NCBI RefSeq assembly: GCF_000724545.1
Contig: NZ_JHBV01000039.1
Coordinates: 186,001 to 250,000, forward strand
Origin: Aureispira sp. CCB-QB1
GTDB lineage: Bacteria; Bacteroidota; Bacteroidia; Chitinophagales; Saprospiraceae
Direction: 5' to 3'
DNA: 64,000 nt
The notes below the pieces were generated by a model. It was not told where the DNA came from, did not search any database, and worked only from the letters and a program-made list of their open reading frames with translations. How positions within the stretch are numbered: the first letter of the stretch is position 1; each line of letters opens with the position of its first letter. This document shows, one piece after another, positions 9,301 to 23,396 of the stretch. Made by a program: the position numbers and the translations under genes.

Positions 9301-11178
9301 GCAACAGGCGGAACAGGAGCATATACTTATGCATGGTCAAATACAGGCAGTAGCCAAAACATCACAGGTTTGAGTGGCGGTTCGTACACCGTAACGGTAA
9401 CGGATGCCAATGGATGTACACAGACAAGTGGACCTCTTAGTGTAAGTGAACCTACAACTTTAGATATTGTCATAGATAGTTTTAAAAATGAAAGCTGTTT
9501 TGGTATTATTGATGGATTTATCAGTACGACAGCTACAGGAGGAACAGCGCCATATAGCTACTTATGGAATACAGGTGCTACCGTAGATGATCTTACGAAC
9601 TTAATAGCAGGAACGTATACCATTACAGTAACCGATACCAATGGCTGTACTGCTATAGATACTGTTACGATTAATGATATTCCTACAATAACCGTTACAC
9701 TAGATGGAATTGATTCAGTTTCTTGTAATGGATTGAGCGATGGAGCTGTTTCTATAACAACGACTTTAGGCGCACCTGGCTACACTTGGTTGTGGAGTAC
9801 AGGAGCAACGACGGAAGACTTAAGTGGCGTTTCAATAGGAAATTATACCTTAACTGTAACAGATGCATTGGGTTGTACCATAACCGCTGGAGCTTATACG
9901 GTGGAGGAACCAGCCATTCTGGCAATTACGTTAGACAATAGTACTGATGTCAGTTGTAATGGGGCTGCAGATGGTGCTGTCATGATGACAACAACAGGGG
10001 GAACAAGTACCTACACGTATGCTTGGTCTAATGGTCAAGTGACAGAAGACATTACAGGATTAAGTGGTAGCTCTAATACGGTGACCGTAACGGATTTTAA
10101 TGGTTGTACCGCAACATCAGGACCACATATTGTAAATGAGGCAAGCGCAATTGTTGTCACAATAGACAATATTGATTCGGTAAGCTGTAATGGAGCAGCG
10201 GATGGAGCGATTGCTATTTCCGTATCAGGAGGAACACCTGCTTATTCTTACAACTGGGATAACGGAGGAGGAACAACTGAAGATTTGACGAATTTGAGTG
10301 GTAATACTTATACTGTAACGGTGACGGATGGAGCTAATTGTACGGTAACATCAGGACCGCATGTTGTCTTAGAACCAGCAGCATTAAATGTAGCAATAAC
10401 AGCAACTGTTCCTTTGGAAGGGTGTCTGGGAGAACCATTTGGTGCTTTGGATGCAGCGGCATCAGGCGGAACGGGAACCGCTACTTATCAGTGGTCAAAT
10501 AGTATAACAACGGCATCTAATGCAGGTTTAAATACAGGAATTTATACTGTTACAGTAACGGATGCGAATGGTTGTACTGCAACAGCGGTAGATTCTATAC
10601 AAGACCCTGTTCGACCAGTTGTCAATCCATTTGTTGGGCAAGCATCTGTAACCGATACGACAGTTAATTGGGGAGATATTATTAATATTAATGCAGGAAA
10701 TGACCAGACATCAAACGGTGTTAATTATACTTGGGAAGATGTTACTAATTTGGGTGATGTGAATTTTGGTAGTAATACAGTGCCTGCCACAAGTATTCGA
10801 CCAGAACCAACAACATCAGGAACATATACTTTATTAGTAACAGCAACATCAGCCGATGGTTGTGTGGATACAGGTTCGGTTTATGTGACTGTTAATATCA
10901 ATGATTTGTTGGGAATTCCAACTGCTTTTACTCCTAATGGAGACGGTGTTAATGATTATTTCCGACCAGCAAACTTAGATCCACAATTTATTGTAGAATA
11001 CAAGATTTATAATCGTTGGGGACAATTGCTCTTTGACGATACGAATACAACGAATCAGTGGGATGGTCGTTTTAATGGAGTCGATCAGCCGACAGAAGTA
11101 TACATTTATTTATTGCGTTATCAGGTTCCAGGGCAAGATGCGCGTATATTGAGAGGCGAGTTTACATTACTTCGATAA
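6385..11178 (+). CDS. SprB-repeat giant protein with T9SS type B (gliding-associated) C-terminal domain
   Basis: 1,597 residues. Signal peptide in residues 1-24 (KCCLLLVLVWSF core, TKAQA cleavage region). Eighteen repeats of about 77 residues follow, each starting near SCNGxxDGxVF, with a core YxYxWSNGATTEDITGL, then GGSYTVTVTDANGCT and a linker SGPHVVTEP. After a PKD/Ig-like stretch (about residues 1410-1510), the last 85 residues form a type B sorting domain (IPTAFTPNGDGVNDYF, YNRWGQLLF, WDG, GEFTLLR), the class linked to gliding motility proteins. By family knowledge this is a T9SS-exported, surface-attached adhesin. Repeats 8-10 are duplicated almost exactly as 11-13. The repeat family is the same as in the upstream gene but the linkers and the sorting-domain class differ, so the genes are not simple copies. 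Confidence 0.9.
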   Translation: MKFFIKCCLLLVLVWSFNTQTKAQAIITVDTIINATCNASADGAIQISVAGVPPFTYQWSNGATTEDVTGLFSGSFVVTVTDGLSGVTVSNVLTVTAPPVINVVADTIINILCAGDSTGSVDLSVSGGVPGYTYIWDNGATTQDVSGLPAGPMNVTVTDANGCTASAKAIGIDSVPPIIVTLDSIDNVTCNGAANGGVFISVTGGRGGTYNYLWSNGATTQNITGLSGGAYSVTVTDSSNCVMLSGPHIVNEPNILAVTFDSLQNVDCNGNGNGAVFITVTGGTANYNFNWSNGATTEDITGLSGGTYSVVVTDANGCVDSTGPHTVNEPAVLTLTLDSIQHIDCNGDADGAVFVTVTGGTTNYTYAWSNSATTQDITGLNGGNYTITVTDANGCTVSDTAYVVNEPPVLVATLDSIVDVSCNGFGDGGVFISVTGGTTNYNFLWSNGVTTEDNPNIGGGSYTVTITDANGCSVTSGPHIVVEPAGMTLTLDSINNVSCNGANDGGVFITVTGGAPNYTYLWSNTATTEDITGLSGGSYIITVTDANGCTVSSGPHVVTEAPALVITLDSIDNVSCNGANDGAVFITATGGTGGYTYAWSNTASSQNITGLGGGSYTVTVTDAAGCTAVSGPHVVTEPTQLVATLDSINNVSCNGLSDGGVFVSITGGTVPFSYLWSNGATTEDATGLIAGSYTLTVTDTNGCTATTGPHIVTEPTALVITLDSIDNVSCNGAADGGVFITATGGTGAYTYAWSNTGSSQNITGLSGGSYTVTVTDANGCTAVSGPHVVTEAPALVITLDSIDNVSCNGANDGAVFITATGGTGGYTYAWSNTASSQNITGLGGGSYTVTVTDAAGCTAVSGPHVVTEPTQLVATLDSINNVSCNGLSDGGVFVSITGGTVPFSYLWSNGATTEDATGLIAGSYTLTVTDTNGCTATTGPHVVTEPTALVITLDSIDNVSCNGAADGGVFITATGGTGAYTYAWSNTGSSQNITGLSGGSYTVTVTDANGCTQTSGPLSVSEPTTLDIVIDSFKNESCFGIIDGFISTTATGGTAPYSYLWNTGATVDDLTNLIAGTYTITVTDTNGCTAIDTVTINDIPTITVTLDGIDSVSCNGLSDGAVSITTTLGAPGYTWLWSTGATTEDLSGVSIGNYTLTVTDALGCTITAGAYTVEEPAILAITLDNSTDVSCNGAADGAVMMTTTGGTSTYTYAWSNGQVTEDITGLSGSSNTVTVTDFNGCTATSGPHIVNEASAIVVTIDNIDSVSCNGAADGAIAISVSGGTPAYSYNWDNGGGTTEDLTNLSGNTYTVTVTDGANCTVTSGPHVVLEPAALNVAITATVPLEGCLGEPFGALDAAASGGTGTATYQWSNSITTASNAGLNTGIYTVTVTDANGCTATAVDSIQDPVRPVVNPFVGQASVTDTTVNWGDIININAGNDQTSNGVNYTWEDVTNLGDVNFGSNTVPATSIRPEPTTSGTYTLLVTATSADGCVDTGSVYVTVNINDLLGIPTAFTPNGDGVNDYFRPANLDPQFIVEYKIYNRWGQLLFDDTNTTNQWDGRFNGVDQPTEVYIYLLRYQVPGQDARILRGEFTLLR
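8051..9420 (+). repeat. 693-bp near-identical tandem duplication (three SprB repeats)
   Basis: Bases 8051-8727 recur at 8744-9420 with a constant offset of 693 bp (231 codons, three protein repeats). Reading both copies side by side I see about four substitutions, all in the last third; the first 460 or so bases look identical. Frame is kept. Confidence 0.95.
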
Positions 11179-11205
11179 CTGTAAATTTTATAAATCTCTT
11201 AAATT

Positions 11206-11239
11206 AAGAAGCCATTTCTCATCTGAGAAATGGCTTCTT
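11206..11239 (+). terminator. Rho-independent terminator
   Basis: A perfect 15-bp stem (11206-11220 with 11225-11239) around loop ATCT, followed by GTTTTATT, lies 27 bases after the stop of the giant gene. It also lies beyond the end of the convergent peroxiredoxin gene and could serve both strands. Confidence 0.9.
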
Positions 11240-11335
11240 GTTTTATTAGAATCAATTAAAAAATCAACGGAGCATTAACAATCAAAAGATATAGTAACTG
11301 TTCTCATAACTTTTTACATGTATAACCTTTTATAT

Positions 11336-12178
11336 TTATAGCTGTTTCAACAAGTCTAGATATTGGCTAGGTTCTGGTCGCAAGCGATAATTATCCGTTA
11401 GGTCTGCAAAACGAATGATTCCTTCCTTATCTGTAACAACCAGTGTTGGCAAAACATTGTCAGAGTCGTATCCTAATACCTCAAAGCCAGCAGGAGTACC
11501 CTTTGAGTGAAACAAACCAAGTTTTTGGGCGGCTTTTAAATCTTCATCAATTAAAAATTGAGCTGGGATGTCAAACTTTTTAGCTAAACTTTTGGTGTGT
11601 TTAGGAGACTGAGGGCTGATAAAAACTAAAGCAGCACCTTGAGCTTTTATTTGCTGATACTCTTGTGCCAATTCTTTGATTTGTGCCATGCAGAACGGAC
11701 ACCAGTTGCCACGATAGAATAGAAAAATAGCTGGAGCTCCCAAGAATTGTTGGATAGAAACTTCAGCGCCTTCTGGGGTTTTAAACGAAACCAAAGGCAT
11801 TTTTTTCCCAATTTTGAGTAAGGTTTTGTCTCGACTAGAAAAATCTGTTGCCCAATATGTATACAAGCACCAACAGCCCAACATACATACATTTAAAATT
11901 AGTGCCCAATAATTACTCGAGAGGGCTATGGTGCTGTATATGACCAAACTAGTTCCTAATAATAGCAATAACCAAGTCGACCACATATTTTTACTTGTTC
12001 TTGGTGTGGCAACTAGGTAAATACCTGCAAAATAAATGGAGCCTGTACCAAAACTAATAAGATTACCAAGCCAAGCTAGTTGATTGGTATGAGTTAGATA
12101 TGTATAGCCAGAATAGAGTGTGCCAATGACAATAAAAGTGACGCTGAGGCTAATAAAAAGACCTTTTAAAGAATCCAT
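11336..12178 (-). CDS. Membrane-anchored peroxiredoxin-like (AhpC/TSA family) protein
   Basis: 280 residues. The N-terminal half (about 5-110) has four hydrophobic segments; the C-terminal half (about 120-280) is a thioredoxin-fold AhpC/TSA domain. The active site is YRGNWCPFC, with Cys160 in the peroxidatic position and Cys163 completing a CxxC pair; later stretches such as LVFISPQSPKHTKSLAKKF and the TLVVTDKEGIIRFAD strand fit the family. It probably reduces peroxides or exchanges disulfides at the inner membrane. Which side the domain faces cannot be settled by eye, and the fusion of four membrane segments to this domain is less common than the soluble form. It stands alone on the minus strand, convergent with the giant gene. 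Start ATG at 12178. Confidence 0.8.
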   Translation of the reverse strand: MDSLKGLFISLSVTFIVIGTLYSGYTYLTHTNQLAWLGNLISFGTGSIYFAGIYLVATPRTSKNMWSTWLLLLLGTSLVIYSTIALSSNYWALILNVCMLGCWCLYTYWATDFSSRDKTLLKIGKKMPLVSFKTPEGAEVSIQQFLGAPAIFLFYRGNWCPFCMAQIKELAQEYQQIKAQGAALVFISPQSPKHTKSLAKKFDIPAQFLIDEDLKAAQKLGLFHSKGTPAGFEVLGYDSDNVLPTLVVTDKEGIIRFADLTDNYRLRPEPSQYLDLLKQL

Positions 12179-12441
12179 AAAATCTCTGATTTAAATTGCG
12201 TTATAACTTGCTAGGAAAATAAATTTACTTTATTGAGCATCAAAGTACACCAAAAAAATTGTATTTTGCATCTTAATACTTGAATAGACTACAAAAAATA
12301 GTAATTCAATCTGTTGAGATGAATTATGATAATGGGCAAAATTAAAAGAAGAATTGTAAGTCTAGGAATAATACTCTACTGTTGACCTTAAAACCACCAC
12401 AATTTGTTTTGGGTTAATAGCATCATTTAAAACGAAATCAT

Positions 12442-12981
12442 TTGACGGAGCAAGAACTCATAGAAAGATGTAAGCGCAACGATAGGTTGGCGCAAAAGGC
12501 TTTGTACGAGCGGTTCTCTTCCAAAATGTTTGGGGTCTGTAGGCGTTATGTCAAAACAGTCGAAAACACAGAGGAAGTGTTAATGTTAGCTTTTTGCAAA
12601 GTGTTTAAAAAAATTGATACCTACTCAGGCAATGGAAGCTTTGAGGGGTGGATCAGACGTGTAATGGTAAATGAATCATTGATGTTTTTGCGAAAAAATT
12701 ATCGTTTTAATGAGCATGCTGATATTAGCGAATTGCCTGTGAAGGCAGTGGAAGTAAATGTAGAAGATGAATTAGCAGCACAAGATATTTTGAACTTATT
12801 GGAACAATTGCCTACTGGGTACAGAACCGTCTTTAACTTGTACGTTATAGAAGGATTCAAGCATAGAGAAATTGCAGAACAACTTGGCATTAGTATTAAT
12901 ACATCTAAATCGCAGTTGATTTTGGCGAAAAAGAAACTACAGGAAATGATTAAAAAATCAGAACAATTGGGAAGCAATTAA
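12442..12981 (+). CDS. RNA polymerase ECF sigma factor (TTG start)
   Basis: 179 residues. Region 2 covers about residues 8-85 (LIERCKRNDRLAQKALYERFSS, then GWIRRVMVNESLMFLRK) and region 4 about 110-170 (LEQLPTGYRTVFNLYVIEGFKHREIAEQLGIS with the helix-turn-helix, then SKSQLILAKKKL). The start must be the TTG at 12442: the next in-frame ATG (MFGVCRRY) would remove the first helices of region 2. The next gene, 140 bases on, has a single membrane span and is probably its anti-sigma partner. The promoters it controls cannot be told from the window. Confidence 0.88.
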   Translation: MTEQELIERCKRNDRLAQKALYERFSSKMFGVCRRYVKTVENTEEVLMLAFCKVFKKIDTYSGNGSFEGWIRRVMVNESLMFLRKNYRFNEHADISELPVKAVEVNVEDELAAQDILNLLEQLPTGYRTVFNLYVIEGFKHREIAEQLGISINTSKSQLILAKKKLQEMIKKSEQLGSN

Positions 12982-13121
12982 AAAAATTAAAAAATAAGAA
13001 GATTCAGAAACATATTACAAATAAATTGGGTTTGAACCCATAAAGGAAATAAACATCAACTTGTTAGACAAGAATAGAACTAAATGATTAAAAGAAACCA
13101 ACCAAAGATAATTAATTAATT

Positions 13122-14444
13122 ATGAGCAGAGATGATTACATTTCTAAACTGTTTATAAAAAATCAGGACAAGCTAGAACAACCGCCTTCTAACGACCTTT
13201 GGTCTAAATTAGAAATGCAGTTAGATCAAGAGCTACCTGTCACTGAAAACACAACTGGAGGTGCCACTTCGGCTACTAAGGTGATCGGTTTATCAAAGTA
13301 TTTAGCAGCAGCCTCTGTATTGGTTGTTTTGGCTAGTGTCGCTTATATGTTCCGATCTATAGAAACTTCTAATATGGATCAAAAAACCTTAGAAGCTCCC
13401 TTGGCAATTTATACAGATGTGGAAGAGGAGACAGAAGAAGAACCTTACGAGTCGTACAAAGATTTTCCTGCTAAAACAGAAGCAGAAAAAGCAAAGGAGG
13501 AAGTACAACAAGCAGAAAAAATTGTAGAAGCGGTGAACGAAAAAGTATTGAAGGAAAATATTGTGGTTCCTAATACAGTGAAAAATTCTACTTCTTCTTC
13601 TAAGAAAATTGAATTGGACGATATTGAAATTGTAGATGAAAAAGAAGTCAATGACTTGATTGTCATCGAACCTGAAATACCTGATGAAACAGTTTTGGCA
13701 AGAACGACAAACATACCAACGAATACTAGAGCAGATTTGTACCAAAATGATGTTCCTGTGGAGCAAGAGGATTTAAATTACAACAGAAATTATATTCCTC
13801 AAATTGCTAACACGATAGACAATAATAGCGTTGTGGAAGAGGTCTTGAATCAATCAAAAGATAAAGAAACGATTAGTGCTACGAAAAAATTTAAGTCAAG
13901 TACTCGAAAAAGAGGTGCAGGAAGGGGAAAAATTGTCGGAAAAGAAAAGAAGGCAGTAAAGAAAATAAAATCTCCGATGGCATCAGCCCACCAACGTTTA
14001 TATCCTTTTGGATTTTTGTTGGGTAAATGGGAGGACGATAATGAGATAGGAGGGAAGTCTTACGAAATGTGGACACTTAAAAACTCGACCACTCTAGTTG
14101 GCAAAGGATATAAATTGTCTAACAGCGCAGAACGAATTTTTGAAGAAGTTATGCGAATCGAATTTAGAGACAATCAAATCTTTTTAGTAATGAGCCTAGA
14201 TGAAGATAAAACAACTGTAGATTATATGCTGTCTACTTTTGATAATGAACGCTTTATTTTTGAACAGCAGATGTCTAAAAATTATCCAGATAAAGTAATT
14301 ATTCAGAAAAGTGGTTTGGATGGTTATTCGGTTATTATTACCAATAATCATAATTTTCTAACAACCGACCAACAACGCTATTTGGAGAACCGAAATAGAG
14401 TATCGAATGTTCAGTCTATGCGGACCATGCATTATAAAGATTAG
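13122..14444 (+). CDS. Probable anti-sigma membrane protein with C-terminal DUF6265-like domain
   Basis: 440 residues. The N-terminal 45 residues (SRDDYISKLFIKNQDKLEQPPSNDLW) look like the cytoplasmic N-terminal part of Bacteroidota anti-sigma proteins. A single membrane span follows (about residues 60-77, YLAAASVLVVLASVAYMF), then a long low-complexity acidic and basic linker (about 95-290). The last 150 residues resemble DUF6265, a lipocalin-like fold: FLLGKWEDD, EMWTLKNSTTLVGKGY, then FIFEQQMSKNYPDKVIIQ. Order and spacing after the sigma gene suggest co-transcription and a sigma/anti-sigma pair with the lipocalin-like domain as an extracytoplasmic sensor; the pairing is inference. A palindrome-like TGGGTT-TG-AACCCA lies at 13027-13040 between the two genes. 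Confidence 0.65.
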   Translation: MSRDDYISKLFIKNQDKLEQPPSNDLWSKLEMQLDQELPVTENTTGGATSATKVIGLSKYLAAASVLVVLASVAYMFRSIETSNMDQKTLEAPLAIYTDVEEETEEEPYESYKDFPAKTEAEKAKEEVQQAEKIVEAVNEKVLKENIVVPNTVKNSTSSSKKIELDDIEIVDEKEVNDLIVIEPEIPDETVLARTTNIPTNTRADLYQNDVPVEQEDLNYNRNYIPQIANTIDNNSVVEEVLNQSKDKETISATKKFKSSTRKRGAGRGKIVGKEKKAVKKIKSPMASAHQRLYPFGFLLGKWEDDNEIGGKSYEMWTLKNSTTLVGKGYKLSNSAERIFEEVMRIEFRDNQIFLVMSLDEDKTTVDYMLSTFDNERFIFEQQMSKNYPDKVIIQKSGLDGYSVIITNNHNFLTTDQQRYLENRNRVSNVQSMRTMHYKD

Positions 14445-14480
14445 GTTCATGCAATACTAAATTATTAAATATACTCGTTT

Positions 14481-14519
14481 TACAAAAGTTGTTATCTTTC
14501 TGAGATAACAACTTTTGTA
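14481..14519 (+). terminator. Terminator hairpin
   Basis: A perfect 17-bp stem (14481-14497 with 14503-14519) around a 5-base loop, followed by TATTTTAG, lies 36 bases after the preceding stop codon. Confidence 0.85.
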
Positions 14520-14645
14520 TTTTAGGACGTTGCGCATTTCCTCCTCAATAAAAAACTAAGCTTGTACTTTCTGCCCCTGAATGATTATAATTAATGGGTG
14601 ATTATATAAAAAGTCTATAGGCTTTTTTTGCTGTATAAAATTACG

Positions 14646-14653
14646 TAACTTTG
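14646..14653 (+). promoter_or_regulatory. -7 element of the second ECF sigma gene
   Basis: TAACTTTG matches TAnnTTTG exactly and sits 50 bases before the start codon, predicting a leader of about 43 bases. A TTTG at 14627-14630 may act as the -33 element, though the 15-base spacer is short. Confidence 0.5.
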
Positions 14654-14702
14654 AAGCTTTATAGTTTATTACAGTTAGTCTTGTAAGTACCTAATTCACT
14701 AA

Positions 14703-15275
14703 ATGACACAAGAGAATAATAACGACTTATTACGACGTTTAAAAGAGAATGATAAGACTGCTTTGAAAGAAATATTTCAAGAGCATTATCCTATTGTATA
14801 TCGTACCATATTTCGGATTGTATCTGACCAGGGAATAGCAGAAGATTTGGCTCAAGATGTATTTATGCGATTATGGGAAAAGCGGGATAGGATTGATATT
14901 CAAGGAGCATTGGGTGCTTATATTCGCAGAATGGCAGTAAACGAGGCATTGGGGTATTTACGTAAAAATAAAAAATACACCATAGAGGAAGTGGCGGATT
15001 ATCACAGCCCTCTAACAATTAGTGGTGAGGATACTTATCTTGATAACGAGTTGCAGGCAGAAGTTAATAGGGCAATCGAAACCTTACCGCCAAGGTGCAA
15101 AGCGGTATTTATGTTAAGTCGCTTTGAGGAATTGTCTTACAAAGAAATTAGCCAAAAATTAGACATTTCTCCTAAAACTGTCGAAAATCAAATTTCAAAA
15201 GCTTTAAAAACGTTACGAAAAGCCTTAAAAAGCTATTTAAGTAGTTTTTTAATTTTTTGTATGTGGTATTTTTAG
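14703..15275 (+). CDS. ECF sigma factor, FecI-like Bacteroidota type
   Basis: 190 residues. Region 2 spans about 10-80 (LLRRLKENDKTALKEIFQEHYP, GIAEDLAQDVFMRLWEKR, YIRRMAVNEALGYLRKN) and region 4 about 118-175 (TLPPRCKAVFMLSRFEELSYKEIS, LDISPKTVENQISKALKTL). The protein ends in a hydrophobic tail (LSSFLIFCMWYF), often seen in this Bacteroidota family. It is followed at 186 bases by a FecR-type anti-sigma gene and then an STN-domain protein, the classic order for cell-surface signalling in which an outer-membrane event releases the sigma factor through the inner-membrane FecR protein. The regulon is unknown but probably includes the downstream genes. Confidence 0.92.
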   Translation: MTQENNNDLLRRLKENDKTALKEIFQEHYPIVYRTIFRIVSDQGIAEDLAQDVFMRLWEKRDRIDIQGALGAYIRRMAVNEALGYLRKNKKYTIEEVADYHSPLTISGEDTYLDNELQAEVNRAIETLPPRCKAVFMLSRFEELSYKEISQKLDISPKTVENQISKALKTLRKALKSYLSSFLIFCMWYF

Positions 15276-15460
15276 CAATTGCCTCAACCTTACGTTACGC
15301 ATTTTACACTTCTTTTTACTCTTTGGCATCCTTACCAGCACATTTGACTTCCCACTACATTAGATAAAACTATAAAAAAGTATTTTTTTTCTAAAAAAAA
15401 TATTTTGATGTAGGGGGGAGGGCTGAAAATAGCATCATCATTAATAGAAAGCAGAAAAAT

Positions 15461-16465
15461 ATGGACTCTAACAATAACAAATATCTTACACTCCTTAGCA
15501 AAGTACTAACAAAAAGCGCCTCTTTAGAAGAGAAGGAGCAGTTAGAGCAATGGGCAAATGAGAATGATGCACAAAAAGCATTTGTAGAGGAAACGCTAGA
15601 AGTTTGGAATTTATCTAAAAATTATGCAGAAGATTTGCCAGTCGATACCAATCGTGCTTGGGATAAATTGGAAGCAAAATTAGAAGTTAAAACACCTCAA
15701 CCTACTATATGGCGAAGTTTGGCTTCTTATTGGAAGGCTGCGGTAATCGCTGGTTTGGTAGCAACGTCTGTATTTTGGATTGCTTCTCGGAATGCGGTAA
15801 GTGTGGAAACTGTTTTGGAAATTGTAGAAACAGGAGAGCAAGAGCAAAAAGAATTAATTCTGCCCGATGGATCGTTGGTGTTGTTGAATGAAAACTCTTC
15901 TTTGGCTTATGCTAAAGATTTTAAGGTTCGAACAGTTGATTTAAAAGGAGAGGCATTTTTTGATGTGACAAAAAAGAACGGTCAGTCGTTTGAAATTAAT
16001 ACAAGCACTACAAAAACTAAAGTGTTGGGTACGTCGTTTAATATACGTGCTTATGACCAAACTCCAGTGGAGGTAGCTGTCGTGACAGGAAAAGTTGCTG
16101 TAGAAAGCGTTCAAGAAGGAAACAAAGAGTCGGTTCTGTTACTGCCAAATGAAACGGTTGTTTATGATGCAACAGTTAAAAAAATGGTGAAAACGGTTGA
16201 ACCAACCAATAATTCAGTGGCTTGGAAAACACAAGAACTAGTTTTTGATAATACGGAATTGGGGAGTGTGATTAAAACGTTGGAACGTTATTTTGAAGTA
16301 AAAATTGAGGGAGATCCTAAGATATTAAATTGTCATTATACAGGAACCTTCAAAGAACCAAAACTAGGAGAAGTATTTAATACCATAGCTTTTACGTTTC
16401 CAACTGATTTGGAAATCAAGAAAGTAGATGAGAAATATATCCTTATTGGTCAAGGATGTGAATAA
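15461..16465 (+). CDS. FecR-type anti-sigma regulator (FecR and DUF4974 domains)
   Basis: 334 residues. N-terminal cytoplasmic helical part (1-85, with LEEKEQLEQWANENDAQKAF), one membrane span (about 91-109), a periplasmic FecR beta domain (about 112-225, with ELILPDGSLVLLNENSSLAY and VLGTSFNIRAYD) and a C-terminal DUF4974 domain (about 250-330, with LVFDNTELGSVIKTLERYF and YTGTFKEPKLGEVFNTIAF). It should sequester the sigma factor encoded just upstream and relay a signal from an outer-membrane STN-domain partner. The STN-domain gene starts 25 bases after its stop, so the pair is almost certainly co-transcribed. Confidence 0.93.
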   Translation: MDSNNNKYLTLLSKVLTKSASLEEKEQLEQWANENDAQKAFVEETLEVWNLSKNYAEDLPVDTNRAWDKLEAKLEVKTPQPTIWRSLASYWKAAVIAGLVATSVFWIASRNAVSVETVLEIVETGEQEQKELILPDGSLVLLNENSSLAYAKDFKVRTVDLKGEAFFDVTKKNGQSFEINTSTTKTKVLGTSFNIRAYDQTPVEVAVVTGKVAVESVQEGNKESVLLLPNETVVYDATVKKMVKTVEPTNNSVAWKTQELVFDNTELGSVIKTLERYFEVKIEGDPKILNCHYTGTFKEPKLGEVFNTIAFTFPTDLEIKKVDEKYILIGQGCE

Positions 16466-16490
16466 AATTTTACGAGAAACAAGCATTCAC

Positions 16491-18344
16491 ATGATTAATA
16501 AGAAAAATATAGTAACAGTAGTTTTGCTGTTATCTTTTTTGGGATTGTATGCACAGAAACCCTCTGATGCACAGAGGGTTAATGTGCATTTTTCAAAAGT
16601 TTCTTTAAAAGAAATTTTGGCGCAAATTAGTGCTGATTATCAGGTACATTTTTCATATGGAAATGACCATTTAGCACTCAATGAAAAAATATCGTTTCAC
16701 AGCGAAGGTAAAAGCCTAGAAAAAACCTTAGAACAGTTATTTGAGGATAATAATATCATATACAGAACTATTGGTTCTCAATTGGTACTCAAACCTGGCT
16801 CGAATAAAAATAAAAAAAGAAACGAACGCAAGAAACGTAAAAAAAGAAGAGAAGCGATACGAGAAGAACGGGATAAAGAAACTCTAGAAAGGGGAACACT
16901 GTTTGATTTTGATATTCATTCTGAAATCATTGGAAACAAAGATTTATCCTTAGAGGAAGAAGAGCTTCGTAGAAGCCCTATTCCTACCGATCCTATTCAG
17001 GCAATTAATACAGAGGAGATAAATGGGGTTTATTATCGAGATACGCTACAAAAAGAAGAGCCTAACCATGTAGACCCAGGTAAATACCGAAACACAAAAA
17101 CTTCCTTTGGGCAATTTTCTGTATTGCCTTTTTTGTCTAGCAATAGACATCGAAGCCGATTTAATGTTTTCTCATTTAATTTGATTTGGGGCATTAATGG
17201 TGGTGTGAATGGATTTGAATTTGGTCTAGTTGGAAATAGTATTAAGCGTCACGTACACGGTTTGCAAATCGGAGGCTTTTTTAACAATGCAGAAGGGCAT
17301 TTGTATGGAGCGCAAGCTTCAGCTATTCTAAATGTTGTTAAAGGCGATATTGTCGGGCTTCAATTTGCAGGGTTGTGGAATTTGGGAGGAAATATATATG
17401 GATCTCAAGTCAGTATTTTAGGTAATATAGCTAGAGATTTGTATGGTATGCAGTTTGGAGGATTGAGTAATATCGCAACCGATGTATATGGTTTCCAAGT
17501 TTCAGGTTTGTTCAACTTTGCGAATGGTAAATTGTACGGGTCGCAAATTGCTGGCTTTGGCAACATTGCATGGGGAGGGAAAAGTGCTGTTCAGTTTGCA
17601 GGTTTGTTTAACATTAGTGCCAAAGCACAATTTCAAATAGGTGGCTTTTTTAATTCTGCTCAATCGGTTGATGGGGCGCAATTAGGAGGTTTGAATATCG
17701 GAAAAAATGTTAAAGGGGTGCAAATGGGGGTTATTAATACCACCAAAGAACTGGAAGGTTTCCAAATTGGATTAATTAACCATGCCAAAAAAGCTCAAGG
17801 TTTGATGCTTGGCTTAATCAATATAGCAGATAGTATTAAAGGAGCTCCTATTGGACTCATTAATATTGTCAATAAGAACGGATACAACCGAATAGAAGTA
17901 TTTGGTACGGATGCGATGTATGTTAACTTAGGAGCAAAATTTGGCTTCGAACGTTATTATCATATTTTACAAATAGGATGGCGAGTGAGTGCTGATAATG
18001 TTTTTACTTGGACGGCTGGCGTAGGTGTTGGTACCAAACTTAATTTAAACAAAGCGCTACATCTTAATTTTGAATTACTTACTTCTCATGTCAATGAGAA
18101 TGACTTATGGACGAAAGAACTCAATTTACTCAATCAGTTTAAAACAACCTTAGATGTTCGAGTTCGAGATCGAGTTAGCTTTTTTGTAGGACCTGTTTTT
18201 AATGCATTAGTCTCTGGTTTATACAATGAAGAAACACAACGATATGGCTCTAATATCATGCCTTACACTTTGTTTGACCAAACGAACCAAAAAGGAACCA
18301 ATCTTAAATTATGGATAGGTCTTACTGCTGGATTAAGATTCTAA
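16491..18344 (+). CDS. STN-domain protein with LA_2272-type surface repeats and probable C-terminal barrel
   Basis: 617 residues from ATG 16491, chosen because the signal peptide begins there (NIVTVVLLLSFLGLYAQ); an earlier in-frame ATG at 16428 would overlap the FecR gene. Residues 31-102 are a secretin/TonB N-terminal (STN) domain (VHFSKVSLKEILAQISADY, SLEKTLEQLFEDNNI), the module that contacts FecR. A very basic stretch follows (105-130, rich in K and R). Residues 250-450 hold about nine imperfect units of the form YGxQxxGxxNIA, resembling the LA_2272 surface repeat. The last 165 residues (GAKFGFERYYHILQIGWRV and beyond) look like outer-membrane beta strands ending in F. No TonB-dependent receptor plug is visible. 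I infer an outer-membrane sensor for the FecI/FecR pair; the signal is unknown. Confidence 0.8.
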   Translation: MINKKNIVTVVLLLSFLGLYAQKPSDAQRVNVHFSKVSLKEILAQISADYQVHFSYGNDHLALNEKISFHSEGKSLEKTLEQLFEDNNIIYRTIGSQLVLKPGSNKNKKRNERKKRKKRREAIREERDKETLERGTLFDFDIHSEIIGNKDLSLEEEELRRSPIPTDPIQAINTEEINGVYYRDTLQKEEPNHVDPGKYRNTKTSFGQFSVLPFLSSNRHRSRFNVFSFNLIWGINGGVNGFEFGLVGNSIKRHVHGLQIGGFFNNAEGHLYGAQASAILNVVKGDIVGLQFAGLWNLGGNIYGSQVSILGNIARDLYGMQFGGLSNIATDVYGFQVSGLFNFANGKLYGSQIAGFGNIAWGGKSAVQFAGLFNISAKAQFQIGGFFNSAQSVDGAQLGGLNIGKNVKGVQMGVINTTKELEGFQIGLINHAKKAQGLMLGLINIADSIKGAPIGLINIVNKNGYNRIEVFGTDAMYVNLGAKFGFERYYHILQIGWRVSADNVFTWTAGVGVGTKLNLNKALHLNFELLTSHVNENDLWTKELNLLNQFKTTLDVRVRDRVSFFVGPVFNALVSGLYNEETQRYGSNIMPYTLFDQTNQKGTNLKLWIGLTAGLRF

Positions 18345-18592
18345 GTATATTCCATCGTAATAGTAGCAGTGCATAACTATTGTGACTTAGAAATATCTTG
18401 TTAGCCAGTAGGTATATTTTGTAGCATAATTACATCTGTTCATTGATCCTAAGACACTACTAAAACTTGTTGTAAAGTAATGTTAAAGTAGATTTTTTAA
18501 AATCTGCTAATGGGAAAGCTATGCCCTAAAGGGACTTATTAAAAGAAAATAAGGACTTGGTAGGGAATTATGAATTATAAAATATATAAAAT

Positions 18593-19036
18593 ATGGGAAG
18601 GAGAACAAAAATAGACATCTACATAACACTATTGTTGCTATTAATAACGGGAGTTGGTATGGCGCAAGTAGGGCAGGATGTCAACTTTACGATTCAAGTA
18701 ACAGGATTTCAGCAAAATGCTGGACAAATTAGAATTGCTGTATATAATAATGAAAATGGCTTTTTAACACCAGAACGTGTTTATAAAAAGATTGTATTGG
18801 ATGTTAACAACAGTATTTTAAGGCATACGGTACAACTTCCAAAAGGAAACTATGCTGTGGCTTTGTATCACGATAATAATTCGAATGGTATTTGTGACAA
18901 AAACGTATTTGGTATTCCAACAGAACGTTATGGTTTTTCTAATAACATTCGACCCATCCTAAGTGCGCCTTCTTTTAAAAGTACCGTCATCGAAGTAAAA
19001 AAAGATTTGGAAATAGAAATTGCCTTACTCAAATAA
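18593..19036 (+). CDS. DUF2141 family secreted protein
   Basis: 147 residues with a signal peptide (about 1-24, IYITLLLLLITGVGMAQ). The body matches DUF2141: a beta-rich start (IQVTGFQQNAGQIRIAVYN), LPKGNYAVALYHDNNSNGICD and the hallmark GIPTERYGFSNN. The family is small, periplasmic or outer-membrane associated, and of unknown biochemical role. It lies 248 bases downstream of the STN protein, and the next gene starts 64 bases on, so it may belong to the same regulated group. Confidence 0.88.
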   Translation: MGRRTKIDIYITLLLLLITGVGMAQVGQDVNFTIQVTGFQQNAGQIRIAVYNNENGFLTPERVYKKIVLDVNNSILRHTVQLPKGNYAVALYHDNNSNGICDKNVFGIPTERYGFSNNIRPILSAPSFKSTVIEVKKDLEIEIALLK

Positions 19037-19100
19037 AAGGTAGTAAGGAGATTGGTTGAGAAGAATTTATCAGCCAGTTGATTGGTTAAAAAATAACAAT

Positions 19101-19751
19101 ATGAGATGCTTAGCGACTGGCTTGTGCTTATTATGGACAACTTTATTTTGTCATGCTCAAGACGCAAGAGAATTTTTTACTTCTGTTGATGCCGAGGTGG
19201 AATTTATTGGTTTGGACTTTTCGGAGGCAAAAATGGTGGGGTTAAACACCAAAAATGCTCCCCAAGAAATTAAGGTAAAGTATTTTAAAGCTTGGAATGA
19301 CTTGTTGATTAAAGAAGCCAGAAAATATGATGTTAAGAGAGCATTTATGAAACAAAACCTAAGCTATAATTTTGATGTTGTCGATCATTTGAATCAACAG
19401 ACAAAATCAGAAACGCTACTTACCAATGCCTCGCCACAATCTTTTTCTGAAAAAAAATTACAGGGCATTGTCAACCAATACAATACCCAAACAATGAAAA
19501 GCCAATATGGCGTTTCGTTTGTCATTCACAGTTTTAATCAGTTTCGAGAACGAGCCTATGTATATATCGTTATTTTTGATGTAGCAACTAAAGAGGTTCT
19601 GTTCTCCGCTCAAACATCGGGAGAAGCAGGAGGGTTTGGTTTTCGGAACTATTGGGCAAGGACAATTTATAATATTTTGGAAGATATTAGAGATTATAAA
19701 TTTAGAAGATGGAAAGAAGAAATAAGAAGGCAACCTTTTGCAAAAAAATAA
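19101..19751 (+). CDS. Secreted protein of unknown function
   Basis: 216 residues from ATG 19101, preferred over an upstream TTG at 19056 because a signal peptide begins there (CLATGLCLLWTTLFCHAQ). I do not recognise the family. The mature part starts DAREFFTSVDAEVEFIGLDF, contains the strand-rich VSFVIHSFNQFRERAYVYIV and ends in a basic tail (RRWKEEIRRQPFAKK). No lipobox, membrane span or sorting domain is visible, so it is probably periplasmic. It follows the DUF2141 gene by 64 bases and is the last gene before a 784-base gap. Confidence 0.65.
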   Translation: MRCLATGLCLLWTTLFCHAQDAREFFTSVDAEVEFIGLDFSEAKMVGLNTKNAPQEIKVKYFKAWNDLLIKEARKYDVKRAFMKQNLSYNFDVVDHLNQQTKSETLLTNASPQSFSEKKLQGIVNQYNTQTMKSQYGVSFVIHSFNQFRERAYVYIVIFDVATKEVLFSAQTSGEAGGFGFRNYWARTIYNILEDIRDYKFRRWKEEIRRQPFAKK

Positions 19752-20032
19752 ATCTCAAAATGCTCAAAAAAAATGATTTAAAGCTATCTTTTATGGCAAA
19801 AAAATTAATGTGTTAACGCTTTTTTTAGTAGAAAAAAATAGGTGTTTTGTCTATAAAATTTTTAGACTGATAATTAGTTTTACCTTGTTTTTGTTTGAAA
19901 AAACGCACTTTTAAAGTGAAAAAGTACGATTCAAGTTGGATACAAAAACTAAATAAATGTTATAGAATTATTAAAGTTCAAAAAAAAGTATTCAAAGACT
20001 GCCTTTTTTAACCTAGAATTAAATTTTAATTG

Positions 20033-20040
20033 TACATTTG
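20033..20040 (+). promoter_or_regulatory. -7 element upstream of a candidate small RNA
   Basis: TACATTTG matches TAnnTTTG and lies 163 bases before the terminator hairpin at 20203, with no open reading frame between. The stretch before it (19752-20032) is very AT-rich and shows nothing else. Confidence 0.55.
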
Positions 20041-20045
20041 TCGAT

Positions 20046-20235
20046 ATGAATATCACTACCAAAAATCTAAAAGAGACCTCCCGACACTGGGTCGGTTTCG
20101 GAAGGTAATAAAAATGTACCCTATACATTTCATTAATACCCCAAGAACCTAACCTTGAGTTTTAAATAAAAACAGTTTGCACACTTGTCAGGAGCTATAT
20201 AGAGTTGCTACTTTTGAAGTAGCAGCTTTTTTTTT
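20046..20235 (+). ncRNA. Candidate structured small RNA (family unassigned)
   Basis: The segment lacks coding potential but has a consensus -7 element at its start and a strong intrinsic terminator at its end, predicting a transcript of about 190 bases. Internal pairing includes CCGAC/GTCGG in the 5' part (about 20079-20094), an AAATGTA/TACATTT stem with loop CCCTA (20112-20130), and the terminator. The size fits the 6S RNA class, represented in Bacteroidota by motifs such as Bacteroidales-1, but I cannot see a diagnostic 6S consensus. It could also be a regulatory RNA or a leader. SRP RNA and tmRNA signatures were looked for and not seen. Confidence 0.5.
20203..20235 (+). terminator. Intrinsic terminator of the small RNA
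   Basis: An 11-bp stem (20203-20213 with 20217-20227, one G-T pair) with a 3-base loop is followed by an uninterrupted run of T to 20235. Confidence 0.9.
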
Positions 20236-20361
20236 GTATTTCTGCGAACAATTTGGCTTGTATGGCATTAATAATAAGAATATTCAAAAATAAGAGGTGA
20301 CTAAAAACAAGTGTGCTTTAGAATATTGGCTTATTTTTAAACAACTTAAATAATAATGTAG

Positions 20362-20369
20362 TAGCTTTG
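20362..20369 (+). promoter_or_regulatory. -7 element for the ferredoxin gene
   Basis: TAGCTTTG fits TAnnTTTG; transcription from here gives a leader of about 160 bases before the ATG at 20536. No clear -33 TTTG is present. A small inverted repeat (AGCTCTTCAATTGAGC) lies just before the start codon. Confidence 0.45.
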
Positions 20370-20535
20370 CAGCCTTAAATGAGTTTTATGAATAAAATAA
20401 AGCTTTAAATGGTTCTTTGGAGAAGATGGTCGGATACCAATTGGTTCTACAAAGAATATTATTTTTGGAGCATGGTTACGCTTATCCTAATAATGGACGT
20501 TAAACTAGCTCTTCAATTGAGCATATACATACAAA

Positions 20536-20880
20536 ATGGCAATAGTAAGATTTAAATTTGAAGATAAGAATATCCCAACACAAGAAGTGAAAGGAATGGT
20601 TGGGGATAATATATTGGATTTGGCAGAAGATAATGGGATGCACATTAACAGTAACTGCGGAATGGTTTGTGCTTGTAGCACTTGCCATGTTTATATTGAG
20701 AAAGGAGAGGATTTTCTGACAGAGATTTCTGACAAAGAAGAAGATTTTATTGATCGTGCTTTAGATCCTCGTATCGAATCTCGTTTATCTTGTCAATGCA
20801 ACCTTTTGGAAGACGATGACAATGTGGTTATAGAGGTATTGGTGCCTGATCAATCTAGAATTATTGGACACGAACATTAA
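20536..20880 (+). CDS. [2Fe-2S] ferredoxin, adrenodoxin/Isc type
   Basis: 114 residues, the usual size. Cluster ligands are Cys41, Cys47, Cys50 (C-x5-C-x2-C within NCGMVCACSTC) and Cys86 (LSCQC), with the 35-residue spacing between the third and fourth typical of adrenodoxin-type ferredoxins. Such proteins supply electrons for iron-sulfur cluster assembly. An IscX gene follows closely, which supports that role rather than a redox role in hydroxylation. Start ATG 20536 lies just after AACAAA-type A-rich leader sequence. Confidence 0.92.
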   Translation: MAIVRFKFEDKNIPTQEVKGMVGDNILDLAEDNGMHINSNCGMVCACSTCHVYIEKGEDFLTEISDKEEDFIDRALDPRIESRLSCQCNLLEDDDNVVIEVLVPDQSRIIGHEH

Positions 20881-20987
20881 TTAGTTGGATAGGAAGAAAT
20901 GAGCGTGCCAATGCTCTAATAAGAGGTTTGACCGCACTTGAAAGATAGTGTCGGACTATTATGATAAAACACTATAAAAAATTTAAA

Positions 20988-21227
20988 ATGAGTTTTGAAT
21001 TAAACTTGCCCATTCACTGGTCAGATCATGAAGACATTGCAATGGGATTGTATGAGAAATTTGGAGATGAATTTACAGAATCCAAAATTTATCGTATTCG
21101 TTTCACAGATTTGTTGGAATGGATTTTATCCCTGCCCAACTTTGAAGGTAAAAGAGAAGATTGCAACGAAAATCACTTAGAGCAAATCCAAGCAAAATGG
21201 GTTTATGAGTGGCGTGACAATCAATAG
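20988..21227 (+). CDS. iscX: IscX (iron-sulfur assembly protein)
   Basis: 79 residues from ATG 20988; an earlier in-frame ATG at 20961 would add nine basic residues not typical of the family. The sequence shows the IscX pattern: HWSDHEDIAMGLYEKFGDEF, then YRIRFTDLLEWILSLPNFEG and the acidic C-terminal IQAKWVYEWRD. IscX binds IscS and iron and modulates cluster assembly. It sits 107 bases after the ferredoxin gene, as in isc operons, but iscS, iscU, hscA and hscB are not here. Confidence 0.88.
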   Translation: MSFELNLPIHWSDHEDIAMGLYEKFGDEFTESKIYRIRFTDLLEWILSLPNFEGKREDCNENHLEQIQAKWVYEWRDNQ

Positions 21228-21317
21228 CCAAACTATTTGCAAACGATTGGTAATTTTTAACTTTATCAGGATTCGTGTGTAACTTGTTGTACGCGAGTTG
21301 TTAATATTGATCTCTTA

Positions 21318-21860
21318 ATGTCTTTCTTAGATAAATTACATGATATTGACACCATTATTTTAGATGTGGATGGTGTGCTGACGGATAGTTCTGTCTATAT
21401 TTTTGAGGATGGTGTACTAATGCGTAAAATGAACGTACGAGATGGCTATGCGATTAAGTATGCCATTAGTAAGGGATACCGCCTTATTATCATTACGGGA
21501 GGAAAATCAGAAGGGGTTATCAAGCGTTTGCAAAACTTGGGTGTCCAAGAAATTTATAGTGGCATGCAAGACAAATTAGAAGCGATGGATGAGTTGATAG
21601 AAATTTATGGCTTGGATTTGTCTTCTACCGTTTATATGGGGGATGATTTGCCAGATTACGAACCGCTTCGTCTAGTCCATTTGCCTACCTGCCCTGCGAA
21701 TGCTGCTCCTGAAATTCGAGAAATTTGCCAATATATTTCTCCTTTCAAAGGAGGCGAAGGCTGTGTTAGGGATTTGATTGAGAAAATATTAAAAGTACAG
21801 GGCAAATGGATTGAAACCGATGTGGTCAATTTGACGAAAGACAAACCCAGCGAATTTTAA
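21318..21860 (+). CDS. kdsC: KdsC-like HAD phosphatase (3-deoxy-D-manno-octulosonate 8-phosphate phosphatase)
   Basis: 180 residues, the usual length for the capless C0 subclass of HAD phosphatases. Motif I is ILDVDGVLTD (nucleophile Asp and acid Asp), motif II IIITGGKSEGV, motif III includes the Lys in QDKLEAM, and motif IV GDDLPDYEPL. KdsC removes phosphate from KDO-8-phosphate to give KDO for lipopolysaccharide. Enzymes of this clade can act on related sugar acids, such as N-acylneuraminate-9-phosphate, so substrate is inferred. No other KDO gene is adjacent. Confidence 0.85.
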   Translation: MSFLDKLHDIDTIILDVDGVLTDSSVYIFEDGVLMRKMNVRDGYAIKYAISKGYRLIIITGGKSEGVIKRLQNLGVQEIYSGMQDKLEAMDELIEIYGLDLSSTVYMGDDLPDYEPLRLVHLPTCPANAAPEIREICQYISPFKGGEGCVRDLIEKILKVQGKWIETDVVNLTKDKPSEF

Positions 21861-22221
21861 CGAAGGCTTCCTTGGTACTTTGTTAAAAGTCAGGTTAGTA
21901 TGTTTTTTTTGCCAATGGTTTATATAGAATCTTTTAAGATGAAATGCCAATGGGTTCTATTTTGGATGTCCAATTGTTAAGAATTTGGACGCTCCTTCTT
22001 ATTTCGTTCCGCCGATTGGAAAATACTACCTTCCTTTTGTAGCAACTTGATGACAAGAAAGTTATCAAACCTCTCCTTTGGTGCCTACCAACTTAAAAAT
22101 AAAAGTACTTCCATTTGGCAAAACCTTTTGGGAAATATCTTTGTTCTTAGCAATATAAATTGTATTCAAATCCAACTTATTTGAGGAAGGAAACAATTCC
22201 TGATTACACAACCAACATATT
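21861..22221 (+). other. 361-base gap without a confirmed gene
   Basis: No terminator or consensus promoter was recognised. The minus strand is open from 22268 to 22065 with protein-like composition, overlapping the start of the next gene; this is discussed as a possible gene remnant. Confidence 0.4.
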
Positions 22222-23346
22222 ATGCTCAAAATACTAGGAACCATATTGCTTTCTTTACTAATTCTCATAGTTGTTTTAATTATAATACTAATGATCTTTG
22301 TGAAATTTGCGAAAGTATTTGGAGGAAAGCCAACAAAAGAACAAAAACAAAAATATAGTCAATATCCGAATCATAAGAAAGGAAAATTTACAAATCTGAT
22401 GCCACAGTTTATGGTAACAGAAGCACCAGATTTTATAGATGATTCGTTGCATCCCAAGTCAACACGACGACCAAATTTTGATATTCCTTACGTCAAAATA
22501 GACCCAAAATCTTTGGAACAAAAACCAAAACACACTCGAGTAACTTGGTTTGGGCATTCCACCTTGTTGTTGGAAATGGATGGCAAAAATATTTTAATTG
22601 ATCCTATGTTTGGAGATGTACCGTCGCCTGTATCTTTTATTGGCGATAAACGTTACAGCAAAGGATTGCCACTAACGATAGAAGAATTACCAACGATTGA
22701 CGCTGTATTAATGACACACGATCATTATGATCATTTAGACTATCCCTCTATTCTCAAATTAAAGGATAAAGTAAAGAAGTTTTATATGCCTTTGGGAATG
22801 AACATTCATTTTAGAACATGGGACGTACCTGTTTCCAAAATTGAAGAATTAAATTGGCATGAGACAGCAACCTTAGATAGCATTTCATTCACTTTGACAC
22901 CTTCGCACCATTACTCTGGTCGTAGTTTGAATGATCGTTTTGAATCGCTGTGGGGAGGATGGGTTATAAAAGGAAGTTTGGATAATATTTATTTGAGTGG
23001 AGATGGTGGATATGGACCACATTTTAAACAAATAGGAGCTGAGTATGGACCGTTTGACTTTGCACTAATAGAATGTGGTCAATACAGCCGTTATTGGCGC
23101 CAAAATCATTTGTTTCCAGAGCAATCAGTTCGTGTTGCAGAGGATGTTAATGCGAAATTAATTATGCCAATTCATTGGGGAGCATTTACACTGGCCATGC
23201 ACAGTTGGACGTCACCCGTAGAGCGTTTTTTAGCAAAGGCGAAAGAGTTTGATATTCCTGCAACGACACCAATGATAGGAGAGCAAATTGTGTTGGGAAA
23301 AGCAACAGCAACATATCCTACCAAAGCTTGGTGGGAAAATAAGTGA
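22222..23346 (+). CDS. MBL-fold metallohydrolase (NAPE-PLD/RomA-like), membrane-anchored
   Basis: 374 residues. One N-terminal membrane span (about 6-30, very rich in I, L and V) is followed by a metallo-beta-lactamase fold. Metal ligands are visible: THDHYDH (His166, His168, Asp170, His171), the early WFGHSTLLLEMDGKNILIDPMF strand pair, SPSHHYSGR-like region near residue 230, LSGDGGYG (Asp) and MPIHWGAF (His). The arrangement matches the family of N-acyl-phosphatidylethanolamine phospholipase D and bacterial RomA-like proteins. Substrate is unknown; a membrane lipid is plausible given the anchor. It converges with the DUF5686 gene 50 bases on. Confidence 0.85.
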   Translation: MLKILGTILLSLLILIVVLIIILMIFVKFAKVFGGKPTKEQKQKYSQYPNHKKGKFTNLMPQFMVTEAPDFIDDSLHPKSTRRPNFDIPYVKIDPKSLEQKPKHTRVTWFGHSTLLLEMDGKNILIDPMFGDVPSPVSFIGDKRYSKGLPLTIEELPTIDAVLMTHDHYDHLDYPSILKLKDKVKKFYMPLGMNIHFRTWDVPVSKIEELNWHETATLDSISFTLTPSHHYSGRSLNDRFESLWGGWVIKGSLDNIYLSGDGGYGPHFKQIGAEYGPFDFALIECGQYSRYWRQNHLFPEQSVRVAEDVNAKLIMPIHWGAFTLAMHSWTSPVERFLAKAKEFDIPATTPMIGEQIVLGKATATYPTKAWWENK

Positions 23347-23396
23347 TATTGTTTGTTCCCCAATTTCAACAAACTACTACAATTAAAACCCATGCT

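Follow-up and report, generated by a model that had tools for sequence, protein, structure and literature searches.

Within a stretch of 64,000 nucleotides from Aureispira sp. CCB-QB1 (contig NZ_JHBV01000039.1, positions 186,001 to 250,000), which in its whole length will be referred to as the window, three consecutive genes probably encode a cell-surface signalling system made up of FecI, FecR and an outer-membrane transducer other than a TonB-dependent receptor. As a rule, signalling from the cell surface is ascribed to TonB-dependent receptors. Here, the genes for a FecI-like extracytoplasmic function (ECF) sigma factor and a FecR-like anti-sigma factor are followed by a gene for a protein that carries an STN domain together with LA_2272 repeats. 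Good support for a signalling cassette with a non-TonB partner comes from the linkage of fecR and fecI to such genes in relatives and from the lack of a plug match in all of 119 proteins of this kind. As the cassette recurs across many Bacteroidota, it appears to represent a separate mode of cell-surface sensing. A limited search of titles and abstracts in the open-licence PMC literature found no description of an STN domain on an LA_2272 protein or of this cassette. The genes and their spacing are as follows.

14703 to 15275, + strand: FecI-like ECF sigma factor of 190 amino acids (TIGR02985, E = 1.5e-43; PF04542; PF08281).
15461 to 16465, + strand: FecR-like anti-sigma factor of 334 amino acids (PF04773 at residues 122-212, 7.7e-20; PF16344 at residues 260-320, 7e-13).
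15731 to 15787, + strand: probable membrane-spanning helix in FecR at residues 91-109, where hydropathy over 19 residues is highest (mean 1.5).
16466 to 16490, + strand: spacer of 25 bases between fecR and the transducer gene, from the sequence.
16491 to 18344, + strand: STN-LA_2272 transducer of 617 amino acids (PF07660, NF047436).

The succession of a FecI-like sigma factor, FecR and an STN-bearing protein, as given in a preliminary description of this DNA, was confirmed by Pfam and NCBIfam matches and by the gene order, and the 25-base gap was found as described, with fecR ending at 16465 and an ATG at 16491. In the list of open reading frames (ORFs) the longest frame for the third gene begins at 16428, within fecR; the ATG at 16491 was preferred because a signal-peptide-like sequence follows it and because of its 25-base spacing after the end of fecR. 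According to the Pfam and NCBIfam matches and hydropathy, the FecR of the window consists of a cytosolic part, a transmembrane segment, a FecR domain and a FecR_C domain, and it adjoins a FecI-type ECF sigma factor. The third protein, which is probably exported, was divided into the following parts.

16491 to 16556, + strand: signal-peptide-like N-terminus, residues 1-22, read by eye.
16557 to 16796, + strand: STN domain, about residues 23-102 (PF07660 at residues 21-62, PF16344 at residues 33-97, and our own STN profile).
16806 to 16877, + strand: Lys/Arg-rich run, residues 106-129 (15 Lys or Arg in 25 residues).
17034 to 17045, + strand: YRDT, which aligns with the consensus KxxYxDT and may be what is left of the CarboxypepD_reg domain found at this place in relatives.
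17109 to 17900, + strand: LA_2272 repeat region with units of about 15-16 residues (NF047436; in relatives a unit spacing of 16 is commonest, followed by 15).
17901 to 18341, + strand: C-terminal beta-rich region, a possible barrel, ending in Phe, from the alignment.

Both domains ascribed to this protein beforehand were recovered. The STN domain was matched by PF07660 with an E value of 6e-7 and 29.6 bits (Pfam cut-off 28.4), and the LA_2272 repeats by NF047436 with 4.5e-14 in six stretches and 52 bits (cut-off 25). The FecR_C model also matched the STN region (2e-5), which is consistent with the C-terminal subdomain of PupR being itself an STN fold as described in PMC7186176. In the Pfam scan the window protein showed no match at E ≤ 1 to the TonB plug (PF07715) or the TonB barrel (PF00593), and none at this threshold to a TolA/TonB model; its C-terminal part matches LA_2272 instead. 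The Lys/Arg-rich linker of the preliminary description is indeed present in the window protein, where the linker with the basic run stands in the place of the CarboxypepD domain of the relatives and its YRDT motif may be what remains of that domain. As a feature of the class the linker was rejected, since runs of 15-17 Lys or Arg per 25 residues were limited to three Aureispira sequences among the 119 (next highest 10, median 6), and 90 of the 119 proteins match CarbopepD_reg_2 at E ≤ 0.01 (26 of 47 and 64 of 72). The transducer ends in LRF, and a terminal Phe is shared by 85 of the 115 STN proteins whose LA_2272 domain reaches the C-terminus; the C-terminal stretch of about 150 residues with its final Phe may plausibly form a barrel, as suggested in the preliminary description. 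The nearest relatives, 86 and 83 percent identical, are encoded on contigs of uncultured Aureispira. The genome of the window itself contains one full copy of the transducer and one weak partial match, which is 28 percent identical over query residues 10-155 and lies in a frame of 823 amino acids.

Relatives were collected at three taxonomic levels. With the window protein as query, 77 of 298 genomes in the order gave a match at E ≤ 1e-6. From the matches listed, 70 regions were fetched around places where the match extends into the repeat domain; places matching the STN segment alone were passed over. A repeat-domain profile (alignment A2) matched 96 of 395 genomes of the class at E ≤ 1e-15; 79 regions were fetched from among the matches listed, mostly ORFs of at least 550 amino acids plus shorter ones, chosen without looking at the neighbouring genes and leaving out some, e.g., near-copies within one genus. 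In the phylum, 64 of 296 genomes matched the repeat-domain profile. The 30-residue LA_2272 model as a probe matched 41 of 296 genomes at E ≤ 1e-5 and evidently misses much, as the genome of the window was not among them. Scans of viral contigs for more relatives found none. The resulting 159 sources (positions 10001-24000 of the window, the loci L003 and L004, the 149 regions fetched, six regions from plasmids and a 10-base placeholder that was not used) were mapped with profiles seeded with the FecI, FecR, STN and repeat domains of the window, and ORFs below 60 amino acids and domain matches with an i-E of 1e-3 or higher were dropped. This yielded 194 repeat-domain ORFs, 119 with and 75 without STN. 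The 119 STN-LA_2272 ORFs are spread over 119 genomes in 82 genera and about 32 families (the row of the window is unlabelled), and six of them (L049, L079, L080, L099, L163, L176) are short, cut, broken or have a domain that does not reach the C-terminus.

Linkage in relatives, which the preliminary description had set as a check, proved strong. A fecR gene lies immediately upstream on the same strand in 117 of the 119 STN-LA_2272 ORFs, with a gap of -143 to 268 bases (median 3, from the longest ORF) and a FecR length of 284-419 amino acids, and fecI is present within 3.5 kb upstream in 102. The 17 cassettes without fecI comprise L003 and L004 at contig ends, 11 other Saprospiraceae loci, L049, L071, L129 and L138. 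A match to the FecR profile immediately upstream was found for a single one of the 75 STN-less repeat-domain ORFs, on a Hymenobacter plasmid (L106), where it represents the split-off STN part in an ORF of its own, the annotated FecR gene being one further up.

These figures bear on the explanation that the third protein is an ordinary outer-membrane or surface protein regulated by FecI and FecR, in which STN persists as a structural relic without a signalling role. Lone LA_2272 proteins with neither fecI nor fecR upstream are common, with 25 such proteins mapped and 20 more in further stretches (18 outside the class and two from family f31 inside it) that carry the repeat domain without STN or fecR. 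In addition, the STN label requires 12 changes on a quick tree of 131 domains (53 of them STN forms), at least seven of which are forced by starred branches, so that the STN fusion was gained or lost repeatedly. A relic, however, does not predict fecR immediately upstream of nearly every STN form and of one STN-less form, and we regard this explanation as improbable. Among the STN-less ORFs, 26 of the 75 (one a fragment of 70 amino acids) are located at most 1.1 kb downstream of a repeat-domain ORF of more than 500 amino acids, and just downstream of the STN form, a further LA_2272 protein without STN is encoded in several loci, among them L040, L042, L077, L078, L081, L087, L094, L096 and L097. 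On two Bacteroides plasmids (L104, L108) the gene for a lone LA_2272 protein follows a gene for an AMP-binding protein and GDP-fucose genes; the lone LA_2272 protein of L170 is 66 percent identical to that of L104.

The absence of a TonB plug and barrel from the STN protein, stated in the preliminary description, extends from the window protein to the class, with a match to the plug or to the TonB barrel at E ≤ 0.01 in none of the 119 proteins (Pfam; 0 of 47 and 0 of 72 for the plug). At the same threshold the Pfam STN model matched 79 of the 119 (35 and 44), and the LA_2272 model matched 43 and 51. The SusC model TIGR04056 was matched by few members (five and four), and the example shown scored far below the cut-off and aligned only in the CarboxypepD region. 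Since FecIR systems usually serve uptake, the cassette might be a conventional iron or nutrient uptake system in which the repeat protein itself imports through a barrel. CarboxypepD_reg domains, which most relatives carry, are typical of SusC proteins (PMC7782687). Set against this are the missing plug and the neighbouring genes: eight neighbour clusters recur in at least five loci, and in the three of them that were scanned (TonB-receptor-like, DUF2807 and a small exported protein) no SusD-like member was seen by eye. We consider this reading very unlikely. In Saprospiraceae, a protein of about 200 amino acids with a signal-like start is encoded after the cassette (18 loci in the cluster, including L034, L037, L038, L041, L044-L046, L048, L051 and L063); one of two members scanned matches OMP_b-brl at 0.0066, below the Pfam cut-off, and the other matches nothing.

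The recurrent neighbours also raise the explanation that a second protein from the vicinity, a TonB-dependent receptor, binds the ligand and that the STN-LA_2272 protein is its signalling adaptor, which reports the state of the receptor to FecR. Of the 119 STN cassettes, 52 have a TonB-receptor-like gene on the same strand at a distance of up to 4.5 kb. Two such neighbours, when scanned, contained CarboxypepD_reg, weakly a plug and, in one, a TonB barrel, and had no STN match of their own; VreA, as described in PMC2729926, is an earlier example of an STN protein that lacks a receptor barrel. The enrichment over lone domains is weak, however (6 of 25 have such a gene; Fisher p = 0.076), and positions 10001-24000 of the window gave no match to the TonB-receptor-like profile. 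We consider such an adaptor unlikely.

A DUF2807 (head-GIN) gene on the same strand, at most 4.5 kb away, accompanies 9 of the 10 loci with a second architecture discussed below, 52 of the 119 STN cassettes and 1 of the 25 lone domains; the Fisher p values against the lone domains (1.4e-6 for the ten loci and 6.6e-5 for the STN cassettes) are too small because the loci are related. One DUF2807 protein of Porphyromonas gingivalis is reported as an adhesin in PMC10949514. The genome of the window has two DUF2807 genes elsewhere.

Returning to a FecI-FecR system with a non-TonB transducer, several results weigh against it. The window cassette has neither a DUF2807 nor a TonB-receptor-like neighbour in the profile search of positions 10001-24000. 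Two of the 119 STN forms (L049, L071) have neither fecR nor fecI nearby, and no fecI is seen in 13 of the 32 STN cassettes of the window's own family, of which two are cut by contig ends and 11 have no recognised sigma gene. The STN call in 40 of the 119 proteins depends on our own iterated profile, and the best matches of the STN profile among solved structures were PilQ secretins (best E = 0.0096) rather than transducers. A full-length AlphaFold model from three near-identical sequences had a mean predicted local distance difference test (pLDDT) score of 33 and confirms neither the STN fold nor a barrel, and a model of the repeat domain had a mean of 44. Finally, a mirror-tree analysis of 99 complete cassettes showed no extra signal between the FecR C-terminus and STN (partial correlation 0.06), the comparison values being 0.24 for the middle of FecR with STN and 0.41 for FecI with STN.

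The repeat-domain model contains one strand of 8 and one of 2 residues per 15-16 residues, with a pLDDT of 60-74 at model residues 51-170. Foldseek with this model found no PDB match at E ≤ 0.001, and the weak top matches were mostly beta-helix tailspikes, from which no conclusion was drawn; the repeat-domain profile had a best E of 0.1 among solved structures. In the 135 of 194 ORFs with both anchors, the distance from anchor to anchor varies in steps of about 16 residues with odd and even counts. One antiparallel barrel strand per LA_2272 repeat was therefore doubted, and a solenoid, or a closed unit formed by each repeat, would agree better with the spacing. We do not call the repeat region a barrel because the AlphaFold models are poor and the repeats differ in number by one unit of about 16 residues at a time.

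In the systems known so far, the anti-sigma factor is bound at its C-terminal part by the STN domain of the receptor, with docking established for PupR and PupB (PMC7186176), and in the Fox system the signalling domain of FoxA shields FoxR from proteolysis until the signal comes (PMC11637429). From gene order and domain content, such a contact between STN and FecR is predicted here. The LA_2272 domain would be localised in or on the outer membrane with the STN domain hanging into the periplasm. As PupB and FoxA suggest, STN would bind the C-terminal domain of FecR, which is itself STN-like, and keep FecR resistant to proteases. A change in the outer-membrane domain caused by a ligand, a partner protein or envelope damage may then alter this contact, upon which FecR would be cut and the sigma factor freed; the direction of the switch is likewise predicted, as is the sensing by surface repeats in place of import that the preliminary description proposed. 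As a possible signal we would favour the condition of the outer membrane or a partner at the surface, e.g., the head-GIN protein often encoded nearby in relatives, in view of the DUF2807 neighbours and the parallel with the Dma anti-sigma factors. These are described in PMC13088901 as uniting an anti-sigma domain, a transmembrane segment, a tether and a barrel in one polypeptide next to an ECF21 sigma factor, and as controlling vesiculation in Bacteroides.

Ten of the mapped proteins (nine from family f3 and one from f14; L053, L054, L060, L067, L070, L072, L075, L083, L088, L090) carry the LA_2272 domain without STN and without fecR. Those read have about 50 residues, a transmembrane segment, a long stretch of low complexity and then the same repeat domain, and a sigma ORF lies directly upstream in nine of the ten, the one of L054 being a piece of 61 amino acids; L083 is cut at a contig end. 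Perhaps these represent a new kind of Dma-like protein. They were also considered as true Dma orthologues; the one Dma-architecture protein found in family f31 has a different barrel and no BLASTP similarity to one of them, this f31 protein being a putative Dma by its architecture and f31 being taken as Bacteroidaceae-like. A more far-reaching reading, somewhat less likely than not, would be a large, so far undescribed class of TonB-independent cell-surface signalling in Bacteroidia, with an LA_2272 outer-membrane sensor, often a DUF2807 partner, and two wirings to ECF sigma factors (STN-FecR, or direct fusion to a membrane-anchored, Dma-like anti-sigma factor); what it reports would be the condition of the outer membrane or its surface and not a nutrient. 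If a widespread non-TonB STN class is real, signalling is separated from import and it becomes possible to ask whether signalling needs TonB; the same outer-membrane domain in two wirings offers a natural comparison with the Dma factors.

Further features were noted in the window. At 12442-14444, a second ECF sigma gene is followed by the gene for a protein of 440 amino acids with one hydrophobic segment near residue 54 and, on its C-terminal side, a DUF6265 match just below the Pfam cut-off. This sigma factor is 38 percent identical to the one beside the Dma-architecture protein of L232, and the 440-residue protein showed no BLASTP similarity to that Dma-architecture protein. Two sigma systems thus lie side by side in the window. 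Downstream of the cassette, 18593-19751 encodes a DUF2141 protein and a protein of 231 amino acids; among ORFs above 90 amino acids in L003, inspected by eye, a relative of the latter is present and a DUF2141 protein is not. Two large tandem SprB-repeat proteins are encoded at 67-5904 and 6385-11178, with different type IX sorting domains (Por_Secre_tail and CHU_C), and a subtilase with PKD domains and Por_Secre_tail at 42731-47479.

Compared with known systems, the cassette shares with the FecIRA type (FecI/FecR/FecA, PupR/PupB, FoxR/FoxA) the ECF sigma factor, the FecR and FecR_C domains and an STN-bearing partner whose gene adjoins fecR, but here this partner has LA_2272 repeats and no match to a TonB plug or receptor barrel. 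Since this defining feature was not found, we do not assign the cassette to the TonB-receptor type. VreI/VreR/VreA (PUMA3) of Pseudomonas aeruginosa also has an STN-bearing partner that is not a TonB receptor; VreA is described in PMC2729926 as small and barrel-less with a TolA/TonB-like C-terminal domain, whereas here the C-terminal part is large and of the LA_2272 type. SusC receptors with STN in ECF-controlled loci, as presented in PMC7782687, resemble the class in STN and, for most relatives, in CarboxypepD_reg, but differ by the plug and TonB barrel that the class lacks among its matches, and in domain order: STN precedes CarboxypepD_reg in the relative L042 and follows it in SusC. Like the Dma factors, the cassette would couple an outer-membrane domain to an ECF sigma factor across the envelope, and ten LA_2272 loci have a Dma-like layout. 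In Dma, however, one polypeptide spans both membranes, whereas here the link is split between FecR and the STN protein: the window protein has a signal-peptide-like start and STN, and its anti-sigma part is the separate FecR. The Dma-architecture protein beside an ECF sigma factor in a family f31 genome carries PF13568, not LA_2272. For a sigma/anti-sigma pair of Phocaeicola with a predicted outer-membrane barrel, PMC9308784 describes induction by an antibacterial toxin, probably via envelope stress. The LA_2272 surface-repeat family (NF047436) is matched by the window protein through its repeats, to which an STN domain and a FecI-FecR operon are added here. We judge the cassette to be a new variant of cell-surface signalling.

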